The notes under the pieces: generated by a model | Seen by the model: the letters and a program-made list of their open reading frames with translations, nothing else | Databases searched by the model: none | What the model was told of the DNA's origin: nothing | Position numbers and translations under genes: made by a program | Origin: Clostridiales bacterium | GTDB lineage: Bacteria; Bacillota; Clostridia; Clostridiales; Caloramatoraceae | NCBI GenBank assembly: GCA_029240935.1 | Contig: JARDZI010000003.1 | Span: 1-35,004, forward strand | Direction of reading: 5' to 3' | Length of the DNA stretch: 35,004 bases | Part shown: positions 19,538 through 30,975 of the stretch, piece by piece | Position numbering within the stretch: the stretch's first letter is position 1 | Layout: the number at the start of each line of letters is the position of its first letter

Positions 19538-20476
19538 TTATATGGCTGCCAGTATAGCATGTGCCGTTTCTAGATCAGTTATAAGTACGTTGATCAAGCT
19601 GCCTCGGGCGGCACCTATTATAGCGGAAAGCTTTTCAGAACCACCACCCACACCAATGCGGAGGGGAATTCTTTTGTAGCTGTTTATATCTATGGCGAGA
19701 ACACGATCATTTATACCGCTTTCGATTATCTTGCCCTTTACATCAAAATAATGTGTACATATCTCACCTACTGAGTTATTGCTCTGGAGAATATCATACT
19801 CTGACTTAGATATGTATTTCCTATGGACAAAGGCAGAGTTGTTTGACATATCTCCAATACCCACCAGTGCAATAGTACAAGCCTTCATAGTGTCATAGAC
19901 ACGGGAAAAGAAGCTTTCTTTCATCAGAGAGTCACGAAGCTCCTTGTTTTCCAAAATAATTGGAGCATACATGAAACAAGGTTTTGCATGTAGGACCTCT
20001 GAGGAGTGCCTTACAATGTCATCTGAATTAATATGTGCTTCCTCTGCATTAAGTCCCCCAACTAGCTGTGTGACTGTTAGGTCTTTTCTTTCGATGGGCT
20101 GGAGATTATTTACCAGGGAAGATAATGCTCTACCTCTTGAAAAGCCAATTATATCCTTATCCTTTATGATACGCTCAAGATAAGAAGAAGCCGCTGTTCC
20201 AATAGCTTCATTGATGTCACCATCCGTATTATTGACAATGATTATTTCGTTAAGTTCTAAAAGGGATTCCAATTGTATTTCCAATTCAACATTTTGATGC
20301 TCGTATTCCTGTATAACAATCTTGACTATTCCTGTTTCAAGACACTTCTTAAGGATCCTATTGACCCTTTGCCTTGACATGGACAATTTCTTTGCTATAT
20401 CATCCTGAGTCATTCCCAGCTTGTAATAGTAATATGCAACCTTTGTATATTCATTTCTGGTATTTACATCTTGCAT
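19538..20476 (-). CDS. SorC/DeoR-type sugar-binding transcriptional regulator
   Basis: AYYYYKLGMTQDDIAKKLSMSRQRVNRILKKCLETGIVKI helix-turn-helix; GVGGGSEKLSAIIGAARGSLINVLITD C-terminal motif. Confidence 0.9.
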   Translation of the reverse strand: MQDVNTRNEYTKVAYYYYKLGMTQDDIAKKLSMSRQRVNRILKKCLETGIVKIVIQEYEHQNVELEIQLESLLELNEIIIVNNTDGDINEAIGTAASSYLERIIKDKDIIGFSRGRALSSLVNNLQPIERKDLTVTQLVGGLNAEEAHINSDDIVRHSSEVLHAKPCFMYAPIILENKELRDSLMKESFFSRVYDTMKACTIALVGIGDMSNNSAFVHRKYISKSEYDILQSNNSVGEICTHYFDVKGKIIESGINDRVLAIDINSYKRIPLRIGVGGGSEKLSAIIGAARGSLINVLITDLETAHAILAAI

Positions 20477-21642: not shown

Positions 21643-22677
21643 ATGAATAGTAAATATAAGGTAGCAGTTATTACTGATGTGAACAAATTAGAATTTGTTG
21701 AAAAAGAGCTAAAACAGCCTGAAGACAACCAGGTTCTCGTAAAGGTTGATAGTTGTGCCATTTGTACCCTTGAGCAGAGAGTTTATGGAGGCGTTATGAA
21801 GCGTTATCCCTTTGCAGGAGGTCATGAGGTTTCTGGTAGGGTTACTGCTATTGGAAGAAATGTAAAAAGCCTTAGTGAAGGGGACAAGGTTACTGCAAGA
21901 TTGCTTACAAGCTGTGGAGAATGCTATTATTGCAGAAGTGGACACGAAAACCAATGTGTTATATCCTTTAAGGCAGAAACCCAGGAAGGAATAAATGGAC
22001 CAGGGGGTTTTGCAGAATATATGCTGCTGGATGCAAAGAGTCTTTATAAAGTTGCTGATGATTTGGATTTGACCTATGCATCACTAGCAGAACCTCTTGC
22101 AGACTGTGTTCACAGCGTTAATAATGCAAATATTGAGCTTAGTGATGATGTTGTGGTTATAGGTGTTGGAATCATGGGTGCTTTTCACATTAAACTTGCA
22201 AAGCTAAAGGGTGCTCGTGTTATTGCCTGTGAGGTTGATGAAGCCCGCCTTGAAATTGCAAAAAAAATGGGAGCAGACATTCTTATTAATTCAAAGGAAG
22301 TTAACGCGATTCAAAAAGTAAAAGAGGTTACAGAGGGGAGAGGTGCTAATGTTGTGTTCTGCACCGCAGCAATTCCTGAGCTTGCTTCAGATAGTATTCA
22401 GATGATTGGTAAGCTTGGACATGTTATTATGTACTCATCCTTCCACCCAGATAAGCCTGTAGAGTTAAATGTCAATAGTGTACATTCTACAGAAATGAAT
22501 ATCACTGGAGCTGTAAATGCAAATACAAGTGATTATTTAATGGCAACAAGATTGCTCTCTTATAAGATGATTGATCCATCACTTCTTATCTCGGAGGTTG
22601 TACCCTTTGAAAGTATCGAATATGCTTTCCAACGTGCAATAGACCCGAAAACATACAGAATTATTGTAAAAATGTAG
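21643..22677 (+). CDS. Zinc-binding MDR alcohol/polyol dehydrogenase
   Basis: GGHEVSGRVTAIGRNV, CGECYYCRSGHENQC structural zinc motif, GVGIMGAFHIKLAKLKGARVIACE. Confidence 0.9.
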   Translation: MNSKYKVAVITDVNKLEFVEKELKQPEDNQVLVKVDSCAICTLEQRVYGGVMKRYPFAGGHEVSGRVTAIGRNVKSLSEGDKVTARLLTSCGECYYCRSGHENQCVISFKAETQEGINGPGGFAEYMLLDAKSLYKVADDLDLTYASLAEPLADCVHSVNNANIELSDDVVVIGVGIMGAFHIKLAKLKGARVIACEVDEARLEIAKKMGADILINSKEVNAIQKVKEVTEGRGANVVFCTAAIPELASDSIQMIGKLGHVIMYSSFHPDKPVELNVNSVHSTEMNITGAVNANTSDYLMATRLLSYKMIDPSLLISEVVPFESIEYAFQRAIDPKTYRIIVKM

Positions 22678-22785: not shown

Positions 22786-22832
22786 AAGCTCTGGAATCAT
22801 AACCATATTAAATGAAAAGGGGAGAGGGTTTT

Positions 22833-24194
22833 ATGTCAAACAATCAAAACGGAAAACTTGGTTTACTAGACAGCTCAACTATTCTTATTGGCGGTATGAT
22901 AGGAAGTGCAATTTTTTCTCTTTCAGGTATGACAATTCTTAACGCTGGGCCTGCTTCGATTCTATCCTGGATTATTGCAGCTGTTGTTCTCTTTGCATAT
23001 GGTCTCCAAACAGCGGAACTTTCAACAATTTATCCACGTTCAGGAGGAATATTTGTATTCCCATCAAAATCACTTGGCAAAAATGAAAAGCAAGGTCGTC
23101 TCTGGGGCTGGATTTCAGCCTGGGCATACCTATTTGGCTGCTGGGCAGGGGCTGCTTTCTCAGCCATTTATGTTAGTATTTATCTTGGAGTTGCTTTTCC
23201 AGCTCTAAACAATTATCAAGTTCCAATGGCAATTGCTACAGTTGTTATCTGCGGTCTCTTAAATTTAGTTAATATTGCTGTTACAGGTAAGGCAAACACA
23301 ATACTTACATTTGGTCTTGCTGCAACAATGCTTATATTCATTGTGATTGCCTTGTTTGGTGGTCAATGGGATGCAAGCATGTTAACTCCTTTCTTTACCC
23401 AGGGCGCTGAAGGTGCATTTGGCTTCATGGGTGCTATTCCAATTGCAATGGTTGCATATGGTTCCATAGTAGCAGTTTCCTTCATGGTAGGAGAGATAAA
23501 AGACCCAAGCAAGACAGTTCCGAAGGCTATGACAATCGCGATGGTAGTAGTTGTTGCCCTCTATGTTCTAGTTATGGTTTCAGTATTAGGTCTTGTTTCT
23601 TCTGGATTTTTACAGGAGAATCCAGGAATGGCTTACATTCCACTATATGCAGCAGCATTCACAAAGCTTGCAGCTATTCCATGGCTGACAAAGCTCATCT
23701 CAATTTCAGCAGTTTTAGCCCTGGTAACTACAATACTTGTAGTAATGGCTCTATCAGCTCGTGCTTTACAGGCTTGTGCTATAAGTGGTATTCTTCCTAA
23801 ATTCCTTGCAAAGAACAATGAAAAGACAGGCGTTCCAGTAAATGCACAATTTATTGTTATACTGATTGTTGGAGCGATTTCTGCTTTCCCAAGTTTTACA
23901 AACTTAATAGTAAATCTTGGTTCTTTATGCAATGCAATTGTGGTAGCTATCATTTGTATGACAATTGTTGCAGCTCGTAAGAGGAACCCATCTGTTCAAA
24001 ATGGTTTCAAGGCTCCTGGAGGAGATATTCTTCCAATTGCAACTCTAATAATCATCATAGCTGCATACATACCAGGCATTCTTAGTGGTGGATGGCAGCT
24101 TTGGGCATGGACGGTTGGTTACTATTTAATTGGTATGATCATTTATTATATAGGCACCAGGAAGCTTGACTCAAATAAAACAATAGAAATGTAA
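22833..24194 (+). CDS. APC-superfamily amino-acid permease
   Basis: LLDSSTILIGGMIGSAIFSLSGM start pattern; about 12 hydrophobic segments; PKAMTIAM. Confidence 0.88.
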   Translation: MSNNQNGKLGLLDSSTILIGGMIGSAIFSLSGMTILNAGPASILSWIIAAVVLFAYGLQTAELSTIYPRSGGIFVFPSKSLGKNEKQGRLWGWISAWAYLFGCWAGAAFSAIYVSIYLGVAFPALNNYQVPMAIATVVICGLLNLVNIAVTGKANTILTFGLAATMLIFIVIALFGGQWDASMLTPFFTQGAEGAFGFMGAIPIAMVAYGSIVAVSFMVGEIKDPSKTVPKAMTIAMVVVVALYVLVMVSVLGLVSSGFLQENPGMAYIPLYAAAFTKLAAIPWLTKLISISAVLALVTTILVVMALSARALQACAISGILPKFLAKNNEKTGVPVNAQFIVILIVGAISAFPSFTNLIVNLGSLCNAIVVAIICMTIVAARKRNPSVQNGFKAPGGDILPIATLIIIIAAYIPGILSGGWQLWAWTVGYYLIGMIIYYIGTRKLDSNKTIEM

Positions 24195-24291: not shown

Positions 24292-25182
24292 ATGAGACAT
24301 ATTAGTGGTAATGATTTTTATATGAGTAACACTTGCCTAGCTTTTGGAAGCTTTGATGGTGTTCATAAAGGTCACCGTGCGGTTATTAACAAATTGCTTG
24401 AAATCTCAAAAGATGGACTAACATCGGTTGTTCTGAGCTTTGAATATGATGAAGCACTGCTTTCTGAGAAAAAGATTCTTTCCACAGAGGAAGAAAAGAA
24501 GTATCTTTTGATCAAAAATGGACCAGAAGTTATGATTTCATATAAAATTAACGAACAAAACAAAGATACTAAAGTCGAGGACTTCATCAAAGATATTCTG
24601 GTAGATAAATTAGGTGTGAAGGTCATAGTTACTGGAAAAAATGATAGTAATATCAATGTACTGCTTAAATGCTCCCTAAAATATGGTTATAAACTTGTTG
24701 AGTGTGAAACTGTATTTGATGAGGGTGAGCCTGTTACATCAGAGTGTATTATGAAGGAGCTTGCAGAGGGTAATCTTAAAAAGACAAATGAACTCCTTGG
24801 GCACCCATACCTGCTCATGGGTCAGGTTATGCATGGAAAAGCCCTAGGTAGAACAGTGGGTATGCCAACAGCTAACCTTGGCTTCTGTAAGATAAAGCAG
24901 CTGCCTGCATATGGGGTTTTCGGTACCCTTTCGGAGATTGGTGACAAAAACGTAAAGGGTCTTACTAATATTGGACAGCGGCCATCTGTTGATAATTATA
25001 ATTATGTTACAATCGAGACTTTCCTCCTTGACTTCTCAGGGGATTTGTATGACAAAACAATTGCTCTTGAGATATGTGCATTTATCAGAGGAGTAAAAAA
25101 GTTCAATAATCTTGATGAGGTAAAGGCCCAAGTTAATAAGGATATAGAATCAATCAGAGCATATCTGGATCAAATAGCTTGA
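24292..25182 (+). CDS. ribF: RibF-like riboflavin kinase/FAD synthetase
   Basis: GSFDGVHKGHRAVI nucleotidyltransferase motif; GRTVGMPTANL and GLTNIGQRPSV kinase motifs. Confidence 0.85.
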   Translation: MRHISGNDFYMSNTCLAFGSFDGVHKGHRAVINKLLEISKDGLTSVVLSFEYDEALLSEKKILSTEEEKKYLLIKNGPEVMISYKINEQNKDTKVEDFIKDILVDKLGVKVIVTGKNDSNINVLLKCSLKYGYKLVECETVFDEGEPVTSECIMKELAEGNLKKTNELLGHPYLLMGQVMHGKALGRTVGMPTANLGFCKIKQLPAYGVFGTLSEIGDKNVKGLTNIGQRPSVDNYNYVTIETFLLDFSGDLYDKTIALEICAFIRGVKKFNNLDEVKAQVNKDIESIRAYLDQIA

Positions 25183-26745: not shown

Positions 26746-26832
26746 CATTGCCAGAGGCAATGTCATACTGAACCTGGCAAAGGAACTTTAAAGGCATATT
26801 GGAAAAGATCCTTCACTTCGTTCAGTATGACA
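26746..26832. repeat. Compound inverted repeat in the aldh-grdB gap
   Basis: cattgcc-aga-ggcaatg (26746-26762), overlapping tgtcatactgaac (26761-26773) ... gttcagtatgaca (26820-26832). Confidence 0.8.
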
Positions 26833-26931: not shown

Positions 26932-28266
26932 TTGGCTCTACTTAAAGCAGTGCATTATATCAACCAATTCTATGCAGGACTTGGCGGAGAGACTATGGCA
27001 CATGTAGGCCTTAGCGTTCTAGAAGAAAAGAAGGGACCTGCAATTGGACTTGAAAAATTTTGGAATGGTGAAATGGAAGTAGTAAATATAATTGTTTGCG
27101 GAGACAATTATATTAATAATGATGATAATTTCCAAAGTATCATCCCAGAAATCAAGAATATTATAAATAAAGCGAAGCCTGATGTATTTATTGCAGGACC
27201 TGCATTTAATGCGGGGCGTTATGGCGTGGCCTGTGCAAAGCTATGTGACTATGTAAGGAGGGAATTGGGCATTCCAAGCGTAACAGCTATGTGGCATGAG
27301 AATCCTGCAGTAGATATGTTTGTAAGGGATAACTATATTGTGGCCACAAGTGAAACAGCTGTGGGCATGTCAAAATCCCTGCCTGGGCTGGCAAAGCTTG
27401 CTCTGAAGCTAGCAAAGAAGGAGCTTATAGGTCCAGCAAGATTCGAAGGCTACCTAAGGACTGGACATAGATATAATGAATACAATGAAAAAACAGGAGC
27501 TGAAAGGGTACTTGATATATTGCTGAATAAGCTAGGGAGTAAGCCATACCTAACTGAGATACCCTTGAGGGGTTTTGAGGCTGTGGCACCTGCTTCAAAG
27601 GTGACAGAGCTTAAAGCTGGGAACATTGCACTTATCACAACAGGCGGCCTTGTGCCAATGGGTAACCCTGATAAAATAAAGCAGGCATTTGCTGTTACAT
27701 ATGGAAGATATGATATGGAAGGTGTAAACTCTCTAAACAGGGGCGTATATGAATCCATTCATGGAGGATATGATACTACTTTTGCCACAAATGATCCCCA
27801 TCGTCTTATTCCATTAGATGAGATGAGGAATCTAGAGAAGGATGGAGTAATTGGGGGTGTATACAAATATTTCTTCACAACCTGTGGTGTAGGGACCAAT
27901 GTTGAAAGCAGCAAGAATATGGGAAGGGGAATAGCAGCAGAGTTGAAAAGTGCAGGGGTAAGTGCAGCAATTCTGACTACCACTTGAGGAACATGTACAC
28001 GTTGCGGTGCAACGATATCCAAGGAATTAGACAGGGAGGGGATCCCAAATGCTCATGTAACAGCCTTTACATCAATAGCTTTTAATGTAGGGGCCAATAG
28101 AATAGTGTTCGGTGGAGATTTTACTTCCCCAACCGGGAATCCTGAGCTTCCTATAGAAAGAGAAAAGGCATATAGACGTAAGATATTAGAGAAGGCATTA
28201 GAGGCAATAGCACAGGATGTACAAGGCCCGACCATATTTGCAGTTGATGAAAGCAGGGAGGGATAG
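26932..28266 (+). CDS. Selenocysteine-containing GrdB/GrdF/GrdH-like reductase component B subunit
   Basis: Full-length Grd-B-family motifs; in-frame TGA 27985-27987 read as Sec gives AAILTTTUGTCTRCGATISKE and extends to TAG 28264-28266; TTG start after GGAAGGAG. Confidence 0.93.
28000..28014 (+). promoter_or_regulatory. Candidate bacterial SECIS hairpin
   Basis: cgttgc-ggt-gcaacg, perfect 6-bp stem, loop GGU, beginning 12 nt after the TGA. Confidence 0.85.
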
Positions 28267-28270
28267 AAAA

Positions 28271-29581
28271 GTGAAATTAACAAGGCAGTATTTTAATATA
28301 AAGGATATATTATGGGGAGACAGAACATCTCTCTTTGAGGGTATTCTCACTATTTGCAAGCAGGAGCTTAAGACCCAGGTTAAAGCACTATTTAAAGCAG
28401 TTGAGGATATAGACTTTGAAATTGTAAAACCAGGAGAAAACACCCGTATAATACATTTGCTAGACACCCTTCAGCCTATGTATAAGGAAAGTGGCAATGG
28501 GATGCAGTATTCTGGATTCTTTGGAAGCCCTGTTACAGTTGGAGATGGTGTAACAAATATACTTAGAGGGCTTACTGTCATGGAGAGTGCAGCTCTGCCA
28601 TGGAATGAGTCAAGTGCAAGCAGTGGTTTGCTTTATCCCAGGGATGCTATAATGGATATGACAGGACCTATTGCTGGATTTACTCCATTTAGCGAAACCA
28701 TTAACCTTGTTATTATATATAAATTAGCAAAGGATAAATCCTCAATAGAGTATGATAATGATATTCGTCTTATTGGAATTAAGATTTCCACTTATATTGC
28801 AGCATTAACAAAGAATATGATGCCAGATGAAAGTGTATGTTATACAATTGATGAGGTTAATCCTGAGCTGCCTAATGTTGTTTTGGTATGGCAGTGCCAG
28901 AATCAAGGACCATATTCAAACACATTTTTGTATGGACAAAGCATAGATAATCTTGTACCTACATTATTGCATCCTAATGAGCTATTAGATGGCTGTGTAG
29001 TAAGTGGAAACTATGTATGGCCTGCTTTTAAGGTACCAACCTATCTCCATACCAATCATCCTATAGTTATGGAGTTATACAAAAATCATGGAAAAACCCT
29101 GAATTTCCGAGGAGTAATATTCTGTCGAAGTCACAATCCAACCAATTGGCATAAGGAGAGATGTGCAAATTTTAACGTAAAGCTGGCAAAGTATCTGAAT
29201 GCCAATGGACTAATTATGGCATGGGAAGGTGGAGGCAATGCAGCTGTTGACGGCATGCTTACCATACAATGCGCAGAGAAAAATGGCATTAAGGCCTCTG
29301 GAATTACCTTTGAATTTGGCGGAAGTGATGGTACAGAAGGAATACTTCTAGTTGATGATGTACCAGAAGCCGATGCAATTATAAGTGGTGGATCCATTGA
29401 AAAGCATTACAAGCTGCCAGAGGTTGAAAGAGTGGTTGGAGGAGATGTTCTAAGGTTGAATAAGGAATCTGGTGGATTTTTTCCACCAGCTGATAAGTCG
29501 ATTGAGTTTGATACTACTACCCATCTTTATTTGTCTGGTAATCAATCTGGACATAGTAAGCTTTTTGCTGAAGCATATTGA
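28271..29581 (+). CDS. GrdE/GrdG/GrdI-like reductase component B partner lacking the canonical processing Cys
   Basis: VIIYKLAKDKSSIEYDNDIR, LPNVVLVWQCQNQGPYSNTFLYG, SGNYVW, HPIVMELYKNHGKTLNFRGVI; GTG 28271 with GGGAGG upstream. Confidence 0.85.
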   Translation: MKLTRQYFNIKDILWGDRTSLFEGILTICKQELKTQVKALFKAVEDIDFEIVKPGENTRIIHLLDTLQPMYKESGNGMQYSGFFGSPVTVGDGVTNILRGLTVMESAALPWNESSASSGLLYPRDAIMDMTGPIAGFTPFSETINLVIIYKLAKDKSSIEYDNDIRLIGIKISTYIAALTKNMMPDESVCYTIDEVNPELPNVVLVWQCQNQGPYSNTFLYGQSIDNLVPTLLHPNELLDGCVVSGNYVWPAFKVPTYLHTNHPIVMELYKNHGKTLNFRGVIFCRSHNPTNWHKERCANFNVKLAKYLNANGLIMAWEGGGNAAVDGMLTIQCAEKNGIKASGITFEFGGSDGTEGILLVDDVPEADAIISGGSIEKHYKLPEVERVVGGDVLRLNKESGGFFPPADKSIEFDTTTHLYLSGNQSGHSKLFAEAY

Positions 29582-29823: not shown

Positions 29824-30975
29824 ATGATTTGCCGCATTTTTGGTAAAACTGGATTGAAGGTGTCTGAACTTGGCTTTGGCTGTATGCGTTTGCCTCTTGT
29901 CAGAGCTGATGTTAAATCCCAGTATGGTCATGAAGAAATAGATGTTCCCAAAACAACTGAAATTCTCCACTGGGCTATCGATAATGGAGTGAACTATATA
30001 GATACAGCATATTCCTATAACAATGGAAACAGCGAATTAGTTCTAGGACAGATACTAAAGGGTGGTTATAGGGAAAAGGTATATCTAGCGGACAAACTAC
30101 CAAGTTGGATGGTTCAGACAAGGGAAGATATGGATAGATTATTGAATGAATCTTTGAAAAGGCTGCAAACTGATTATATTGATTTTTATCTTGTTCATGC
30201 TGTTAATATACTGTTTTGGCCTAATCTTGTAAAGAATGGACTATTCGAGTTCCTTGATTCAGCCTTGGCTGATGGCAGGATACATTATGCTGGCTTCTCA
30301 TTTCACGATGATCTGGGTTTGTTCAAGGAAGTTGTGGATTCCTATCCATGGTCCTTTTGCCAGATTCAGTATAATTATCTAGACGAAAATTATCAGGCTG
30401 GCAAAGCTGGACTGGAGTATGCAGTAGACCGCGGACTTGGAGTAGTTATTATGGAGCCAATGCGTGGAGGCAGGCTAGCTTCCAATATCCCACCTGATGT
30501 ACATCAGCTATGGGAACAGTCAGAAATCAAGAGGAGCCCTCCTGAATGGGCACTACGTTTTCTATGGGATCATCCAGGTATTAGCGTGGTTTTGAGCGGA
30601 ATGAATGAAATGGAGCAGGTGAAGGAGAACGTCCGAATTGCGGGTCAAGCTCATCCAAACACTCTTACTATAGCAGAAAAGGCACTGATTGATAAGGTTA
30701 AAGCAATATACCATTCTAGAATGAAGGTTAATTGCACTGCCTGTCGCTATTGTATGCCATGCCCAGCAGGTGTGAACATTCCAAACTGCTTTGCCATGTT
30801 TAACAACGCCCATATGATGGACGATATTCCAACCTTTCAAACCTCTTATAATATACAAATTGGTTCGGATCATAATGCATCTAACTGCATTGAATGTGGA
30901 CACTGTGAAGAATTATGCCCACAAGGCATACCGATACGAGAAATGCTAAAGGAAACAACAAGGCTCTTTACATAA
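29824..30975 (+). CDS. Aldo/keto reductase with C-terminal 4Fe-4S motifs
   Basis: GFGCMRLPL, IDTAYSYNNGNSE; C-terminal CTACRYCMPCPAGVNIP and CIECGHCEELCPQ. Confidence 0.92.
   Translation: MICRIFGKTGLKVSELGFGCMRLPLVRADVKSQYGHEEIDVPKTTEILHWAIDNGVNYIDTAYSYNNGNSELVLGQILKGGYREKVYLADKLPSWMVQTREDMDRLLNESLKRLQTDYIDFYLVHAVNILFWPNLVKNGLFEFLDSALADGRIHYAGFSFHDDLGLFKEVVDSYPWSFCQIQYNYLDENYQAGKAGLEYAVDRGLGVVIMEPMRGGRLASNIPPDVHQLWEQSEIKRSPPEWALRFLWDHPGISVVLSGMNEMEQVKENVRIAGQAHPNTLTIAEKALIDKVKAIYHSRMKVNCTACRYCMPCPAGVNIPNCFAMFNNAHMMDDIPTFQTSYNIQIGSDHNASNCIECGHCEELCPQGIPIREMLKETTRLFT

Follow-up and report, generated by a model that had tools for sequence, protein, structure and literature searches.

A Grd-type subunit without the pyruvoyl-forming cysteine, encoded beside its selenoprotein partner in a putative operon for anaerobic riboflavin breakdown

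The described enzymes closest to the gene pair studied here, finH and finI, are the Grd-type reductases. Glycine and sarcosine reductase (GrdBE and GrdFG) share with FinHI the domains PF07355 and PF09338 and the selenocysteine-containing motif UGTCTRC, and a cysteine-derived pyruvoyl group has been located by mass spectrometry in C. difficile GrdE (peptide 242-266) and PrdA (421-427) (PMC9908766). The D-proline reductase PrdA/PrdB is a distant homologue (45.7 bits to TIGR04480); PrdA, unlike FinI, derives its pyruvoyl group from Cys421 (PMC9908766), and no link of this enzyme to fin-type genes was found in the data examined. Cysteine loss in a Grd alpha subunit is of a kind already known from GrdI and FarE. 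Betaine reductase GrdHI is a GrdB/GrdE-type pair in which GrdI, like FinI, lacks the pyruvoyl cysteine (SGSFMPCSSK). Fluoroacetate reductase FarBE is a pyruvoyl-free Grd-type enzyme whose substrate is unable to form a Schiff base (PMC10838667), and FarE lacks the two cysteines and, as with betaine GrdI, is not a proprotein (PMC10838667, citing Bednarski et al. 2001).

A second line of background comes from a 2026 preprint (PMC12934955), which reports that C. scindens converts riboflavin to lumichrome anaerobically and describes a fin neighbourhood with genes for a RibF, a class I aldolase, an alcohol dehydrogenase (ADH), an aldehyde dehydrogenase (ALDH) and the two Grd homologues finHI. Induction of this neighbourhood by riboflavin together with lumichrome production was shown for C. 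scindens only (PMC12934955). The neighbourhood of F. fissicatena is without finHI and has an extra aldehyde-alcohol dehydrogenase at its flank, and the product of this strain is hydroxyethylflavin (PMC12934955). According to the same preprint, the sole characterised pathway for the riboflavin side chain needs oxygen; the preprint itself contains no enzymology, and the word selenoprotein is absent from it.

The window, by which we mean the whole stretch of 35,004 nucleotides that was analysed, carries homologues of finB, C, D, G, H and I together, with 47-75% identity to those of C. scindens. On the forward strand lie a finC-like class I aldolase of the DhnA/LsrF type (PF01791; 20832..21632; 62% to C. 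scindens), a finD-like Zn alcohol dehydrogenase (21643..22677; 63%), an APC permease (22812..24194) with two APC homologues in the C. scindens neighbourhood, a finB-like second RibF (24292..25182) with a conserved riboflavin-kinase domain and a degenerate FAD-synthetase domain, and a finG-like aldehyde dehydrogenase (PF00171; 25209..26699), followed by finH and finI. A SorC/DeoR-type regulator with a sugar-binding domain, 44% identical to the C. scindens regulator, is encoded divergently from the operon (19538..20476, reverse strand). Because the gene set is orthologous and the order in C. scindens ATCC 35704 (APC-RibF-aldolase-ADH-regulator-APC-ALDH-GrdB-GrdE; genome G724) agrees with finB, C, D, G, H and I of the preprint, we regard the window as carrying a fin-type operon. 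The C. scindens FinHI is the same orthologous pair with the same operon content, the same cysteine loss and selenocysteine (Sec) in FinH; the window differs in its order (aldolase-ADH-APC-RibF-ALDH-finH-finI), in its divergent regulator and in having one APC gene rather than two. Outside the Lachnospiraceae, Lutispora saccharofermentans has the same gene set as the window, and in Alkaliphilus peptidifermentans an aldehyde:ferredoxin oxidoreductase (AFOR) replaces the ALDH. The gene that immediately follows finI (29824-30975), for an aldo-keto reductase with a 4Fe-4S dicluster domain, was found in no orthologous locus and was not counted as part of the operon. An Rfam scan of the window found no FMN riboswitch, a SECIS element being its sole match.

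The finH-like gene (26932..28266, forward strand), which starts with TTG behind an AAGGAG ribosome-binding site, encodes a GrdB-type selenoprotein (PF07355) with Sec as residue 352, side by side with the gene for the PF09338 subunit. An in-frame TGA (27985..27987, forward strand) lies in TTTUGTCTRC, a SECIS_4 element (RF01990) follows directly 3' of it (27988..28025, forward strand; Rfam 39.7 bits, gathering threshold 38), and the organism's own genome encodes a tRNA-Sec (63.5 bits), so that all three features by which we recognise a selenoprotein are present. The serine of the STUG motif has been named as a possible carbonyl (formylglycine) site (PMC10838667). The equivalent position (window 27976-27987, TTTU) is threonine in the FinH of the window and in those of loci L003 and L005, so that neither candidate carbonyl site of Grd systems is present here. 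An imperfect inverted repeat (26763-26830; TCATACTGAA ... TTCAGTATGA) between the ALDH and finH genes is possibly a mobile or regulatory element.

The finI-like gene (28271..29581, forward strand) has a GTG start with GGGAGG upstream and encodes a GrdE/GrdI-type subunit of 436 residues (PF09338, 426.6 bits) that is 75% identical to its C. scindens ATCC 35704 orthologue. Its motif reads LDGC242-VVSGN-Y248-VWPA252-FKVPTYLHTNHP; the segment GC-VVSGN-Y-VWPAFKVPTYLH (28991..29050, forward strand) aligns Tyr248 (TAT, 29012-29014) with the pyruvoyl position, and the cysteine in SGN-C that marks a GrdE is lacking. In alignment A1, column 248 is cysteine in 25/25 GrdE/GrdG, tyrosine in 16 and leucine in one of the 17 FinI, and phenylalanine in one FarE-like protein and in 4/4 GrdI, a label to be read with the partners of L120 and L121 passing the GrdH cutoff and that of a third reaching 770 bits against 775. 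Column 252 is likewise cysteine in 25/25 GrdE/GrdG and in 0/17 FinI, with alanine in the window. The earlier note on this DNA had claimed that the pyruvoyl-forming cysteine is missing, that both cysteines of CVSAC are replaced and that the partner keeps its selenol machinery; the first two claims are borne out by these columns and the third by the presence of UGTCTRC in every FinH seen. The canonical motif that it gave was correct as well, GrdE/GrdG homologues reading DGA-x-x-SGN-C-V[SA]xCDK. The source genome encodes a second, normal GrdE on contig C385 (SGNCVSACDK; DGAVVSGNCVSACDKNPTYVH), downstream of genes that read as a thioredoxin reductase and a thioredoxin-like protein. Sequencing error or chance as the cause of the cysteine loss was ruled out, the change being common to the 17 members of the clade.

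The FinI set comprised the window protein, ten orthologues from a search for related loci and six from Lachnospiraceae. The other FinI are 53-91% identical to that of the window and the remaining Grd subunits about 40% or less, and FinI forms a single clade (SH-aLRT 99) in a tree built by a quick method, unrooted and with very long FarE-like and PrdA branches. Separate cysteine losses in the Grd lineages are likely, with the reservation that the tree is unrooted and has long branches. The clade is sparse, since a class-wide search of 392 genomes gave three close FinI only. FinI is 31-34% identical to GrdI, which falls in a separate clade, and the family models for described reductases scored below their cutoffs: FinH reached 420.6 bits against 775 for NF040795 (betaine GrdH) and 461.5 against 602 for TIGR01917 (glycine reductase), FinI reached 146 against 675 for NF053623 (FarE), and the score for NF040793 (sarcosine reductase GrdG) was 256.1 against 780. 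FarB is without CxxC (PMC10838667), whereas FinH keeps it. No solved structure related to FinI by sequence was found in the PDB, and a FinI model (pLDDT 88.7) gave no significant fold match in Foldseek (best E = 0.03). Genome G401 encodes a FarB/FarE-like pair (L126:3220-4587 with L072) that scores 484 bits against the FarE model (cutoff 675), in which SxxC (UGTSTRC) takes the place of CxxC and the region of the GrdE motif is shorter.

Taken with its gene context, FinI is probably an unprocessed alpha subunit without a pyruvoyl group, part of a Sec-dependent Grd-type reductase, FinHI, in an operon for anaerobic riboflavin breakdown. We lean towards carboxymethylflavin as the substrate of FinHI, such that lumichrome would be displaced from its N10 CH2-COO- group and energy conserved as acetyl phosphate. 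The gene content, the fin orthology, the lost cysteine and the retained Sec are read from sequence, and the substrate and the following six steps are deduced from them. The route was first drawn from the gene neighbourhood, before PMC12934955 came to light. FinB would phosphorylate riboflavin to FMN, FinD would oxidise the 4'-hydroxyl to a ketone (4'-keto-FMN), and the class I aldolase FinC would split C2'-C3' to give DHAP and 10-formylmethylflavin, which FinG (AFOR in two loci) would oxidise to 10-carboxymethylflavin. The FinH selenolate would then attack the carbon of N10-CH2-COO- and expel lumichrome, and the carboxymethyl group would pass to the selenoprotein GrdA and, via GrdC/D, to acetyl phosphate. 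A retro-aldol reaction of 4'-keto-FMN to DHAP and 10-formylmethylflavin is a simple route to a two-carbon stub, and this stub is that of hydroxyethylflavin and formylmethylflavin. Carboxymethylflavin resembles an N-substituted glycine in which the nitrogen has neither hydrogen nor a basic lone pair, and lumichrome, which would leave as a well stabilised anion, is a good leaving group. Flavin N10 is fully substituted and conjugated and therefore forms no Schiff base; since the leaving group is also good, we propose that a pyruvoyl activator is unnecessary. The pyruvoyl site would be filled instead, by Tyr or Leu in FinI and by Phe in GrdI and FarE, whose leaving groups are trimethylamine and fluoride. 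The hydroxyethylflavin of F. fissicatena is what the route would lead one to expect of a strain without finHI, in which formylmethylflavin would be reduced. Counting against the route are that no role in flavin transport is known for the APC permease and that excess ribitol or ribose brought no reported growth benefit to C. scindens, a result explicable in that the proposed route would release neither.

Comparison across genomes bears on this proposal. If FinHI acts on an aldehyde-derived carboxylate, an aldehyde-to-acid enzyme is expected always to lie nearby, and an ALDH or AFOR was found near FinHI in 17/17 loci (ALDH in 15, AFOR instead in L010 and L012) as against 0/16 canonical Grd loci, GrdBE and GrdFG; the stretches searched around FinI were for the most part longer than the canonical ones, but every ALDH/AFOR match is no more than 2.5 kb from FinH or FinI. 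Genes for the aldolase, the Zn-ADH and RibF adjoin FinHI in 11/17 loci and form a separate unit in a twelfth genome (G696), so that 12/17 FinI genomes have both FinC and a second RibF. Among 397 Lachnospiraceae genomes, FinC occurs in eight, FinI in seven and both in six (hypergeometric p = 3.7e-11, a value made too small by shared ancestry); in five of these six genomes the two genes are linked, which supports the co-occurrence. The FinC-type proteins of the two genomes without FinI, G466 and G587, are relatives at 41-48%, encoded among sugar-uptake genes with no RibF. GrdA is present in 15/17 FinI genomes; it was not found in the source metagenome-assembled genome (82.7% complete) or in G396, which counts against the route. 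Pairs of FinC/FinD-like aldolase and Zn-ADH (40-48%) also occur at L186, L187 and L188, within clusters for sugar importers or PTS from other Lachnospiraceae, and such pairs are possibly the source of the fin pair. An Fe-ADH lies near 3/17 loci only (L005:10823-12013, L010:13096-14307 and L011:11264-12478; 50-62% identical); it could interconvert hydroxyethyl- and formylmethylflavin and was left out as evidence.

The absence of FinB and FinC from 5/17 FinI genomes also counts against the route and means that the substrate there is made elsewhere, imported or different. In these five loci (L006, L008, L007, L011 and L012) FinHI is accompanied by ALDH or AFOR without RibF or FinC, as it would be if FinHI were a pyruvoyl-free Grd-type reductase for some other X-CH2-COO- compound from the adjoining aldehyde oxidoreductase, with the riboflavin link confined to some hosts. 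Two of them (L006:1483-11827 and L008:1151-12620) carry, besides a class II aldolase and a Zn-ADH of another kind, a TIM-barrel protein that resembles sugar isomerases and an ABC importer for sugars, and possibly represent a second version of the pathway or use another N-substituted polyol substrate. The other three (L007:5605-7598, L011:6287-11151 and L012:2983-7484) share an HTH-cupin regulator and a second type of APC permease (about 50% mutual identity), which L107 has as an additional gene; this suggests uptake of a flavin fragment or other compound. We nevertheless consider a different substrate unlikely, because FinI is one clade with the motif alike in RibF-bearing and RibF-free loci, the core ALDH of the short loci shares 65-72% identity with that of the window, and cross-feeding with hydroxyethyl- or formylmethylflavin could account for the short loci.

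A role in flavin overflow, which the authors of PMC12934955 prefer while considering damage chemistry possible, would have FinB run in reverse, with FADH2 pyrophosphorylase activity, and the fin genes dispose of excess reduced flavin; some prokaryotic FAD synthetases de-adenylylate FADH2, as reported there. The conservation of FinB speaks against this. The half that has eroded is the adenylyltransferase, with the FxFG loop deleted in 8/11 sequences and the SSxxIR-type motif changed, and the riboflavin-kinase half is strongly conserved (GRTVGMPTAN); the functional meaning of these three motifs we take from general knowledge of RibF. Another RibF above the family cutoff is encoded elsewhere in 10/12 genomes with FinB, and this pattern would fit a dedicated FMN-making kinase. 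We judge a reversed FinB improbable, the physiological reason for the pathway, overflow or energy, being a question apart from the direction of FinB.

Processing of FinI at Cys242 (TGT, 28994-28996) or at a serine, so that it would still carry a carbonyl, is very improbable: Cys242 occurs in 15/17 FinI and Ser245 in nearly all, but the Cys242 column is the canonical alanine, with Ala in L081, L082 and every other aligned Grd subunit, and Ser245 is family-wide and Gly in L081. The relocated site that the earlier note had suggested for Cys242 is ruled out by this alignment, and the check it had proposed for a conserved processing cysteine elsewhere found none common to all 17 FinI. Its numbering of the pyruvoyl cysteine at about 242 holds for C. 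difficile (PMC9908766); Cys242 of the window shares the number only, the true counterpart being residue 248. The uniqueness that it implied for the cysteine loss falls with the GrdI and FarE lineages, and the same precedent (PMC10838667) makes its proposal that FinI may not be processed the best reading of the protein.

The cysteine-free subunits suggest a rule for the Grd family, in which the pyruvoyl cysteine is kept for primary and secondary amines (glycine, sarcosine and D-proline) and is absent where no Schiff base is possible. Cysteine loss would then follow from a substrate that forms no Schiff base, a reason that GrdI, FarE and FinI would have in common. The gene neighbourhood of the window suggests that FinI and its Sec-containing partner remove the final carbons from vitamin B2 anaerobically, leaving lumichrome. 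Each fin gene is now assigned a specific proposed reaction, and a reason is offered for the halt at hydroxyethylflavin in the strain without finHI. Lumichrome and formylmethylflavin are reported MR1 ligands (PMC12338742), and the pathway thus bears on host immunity. The proposal predicts that gut bacteria need selenium to form lumichrome anaerobically; if it is true, selenium-dependent anaerobic catabolism of vitamin B2 would be a route of substrate-level phosphorylation.
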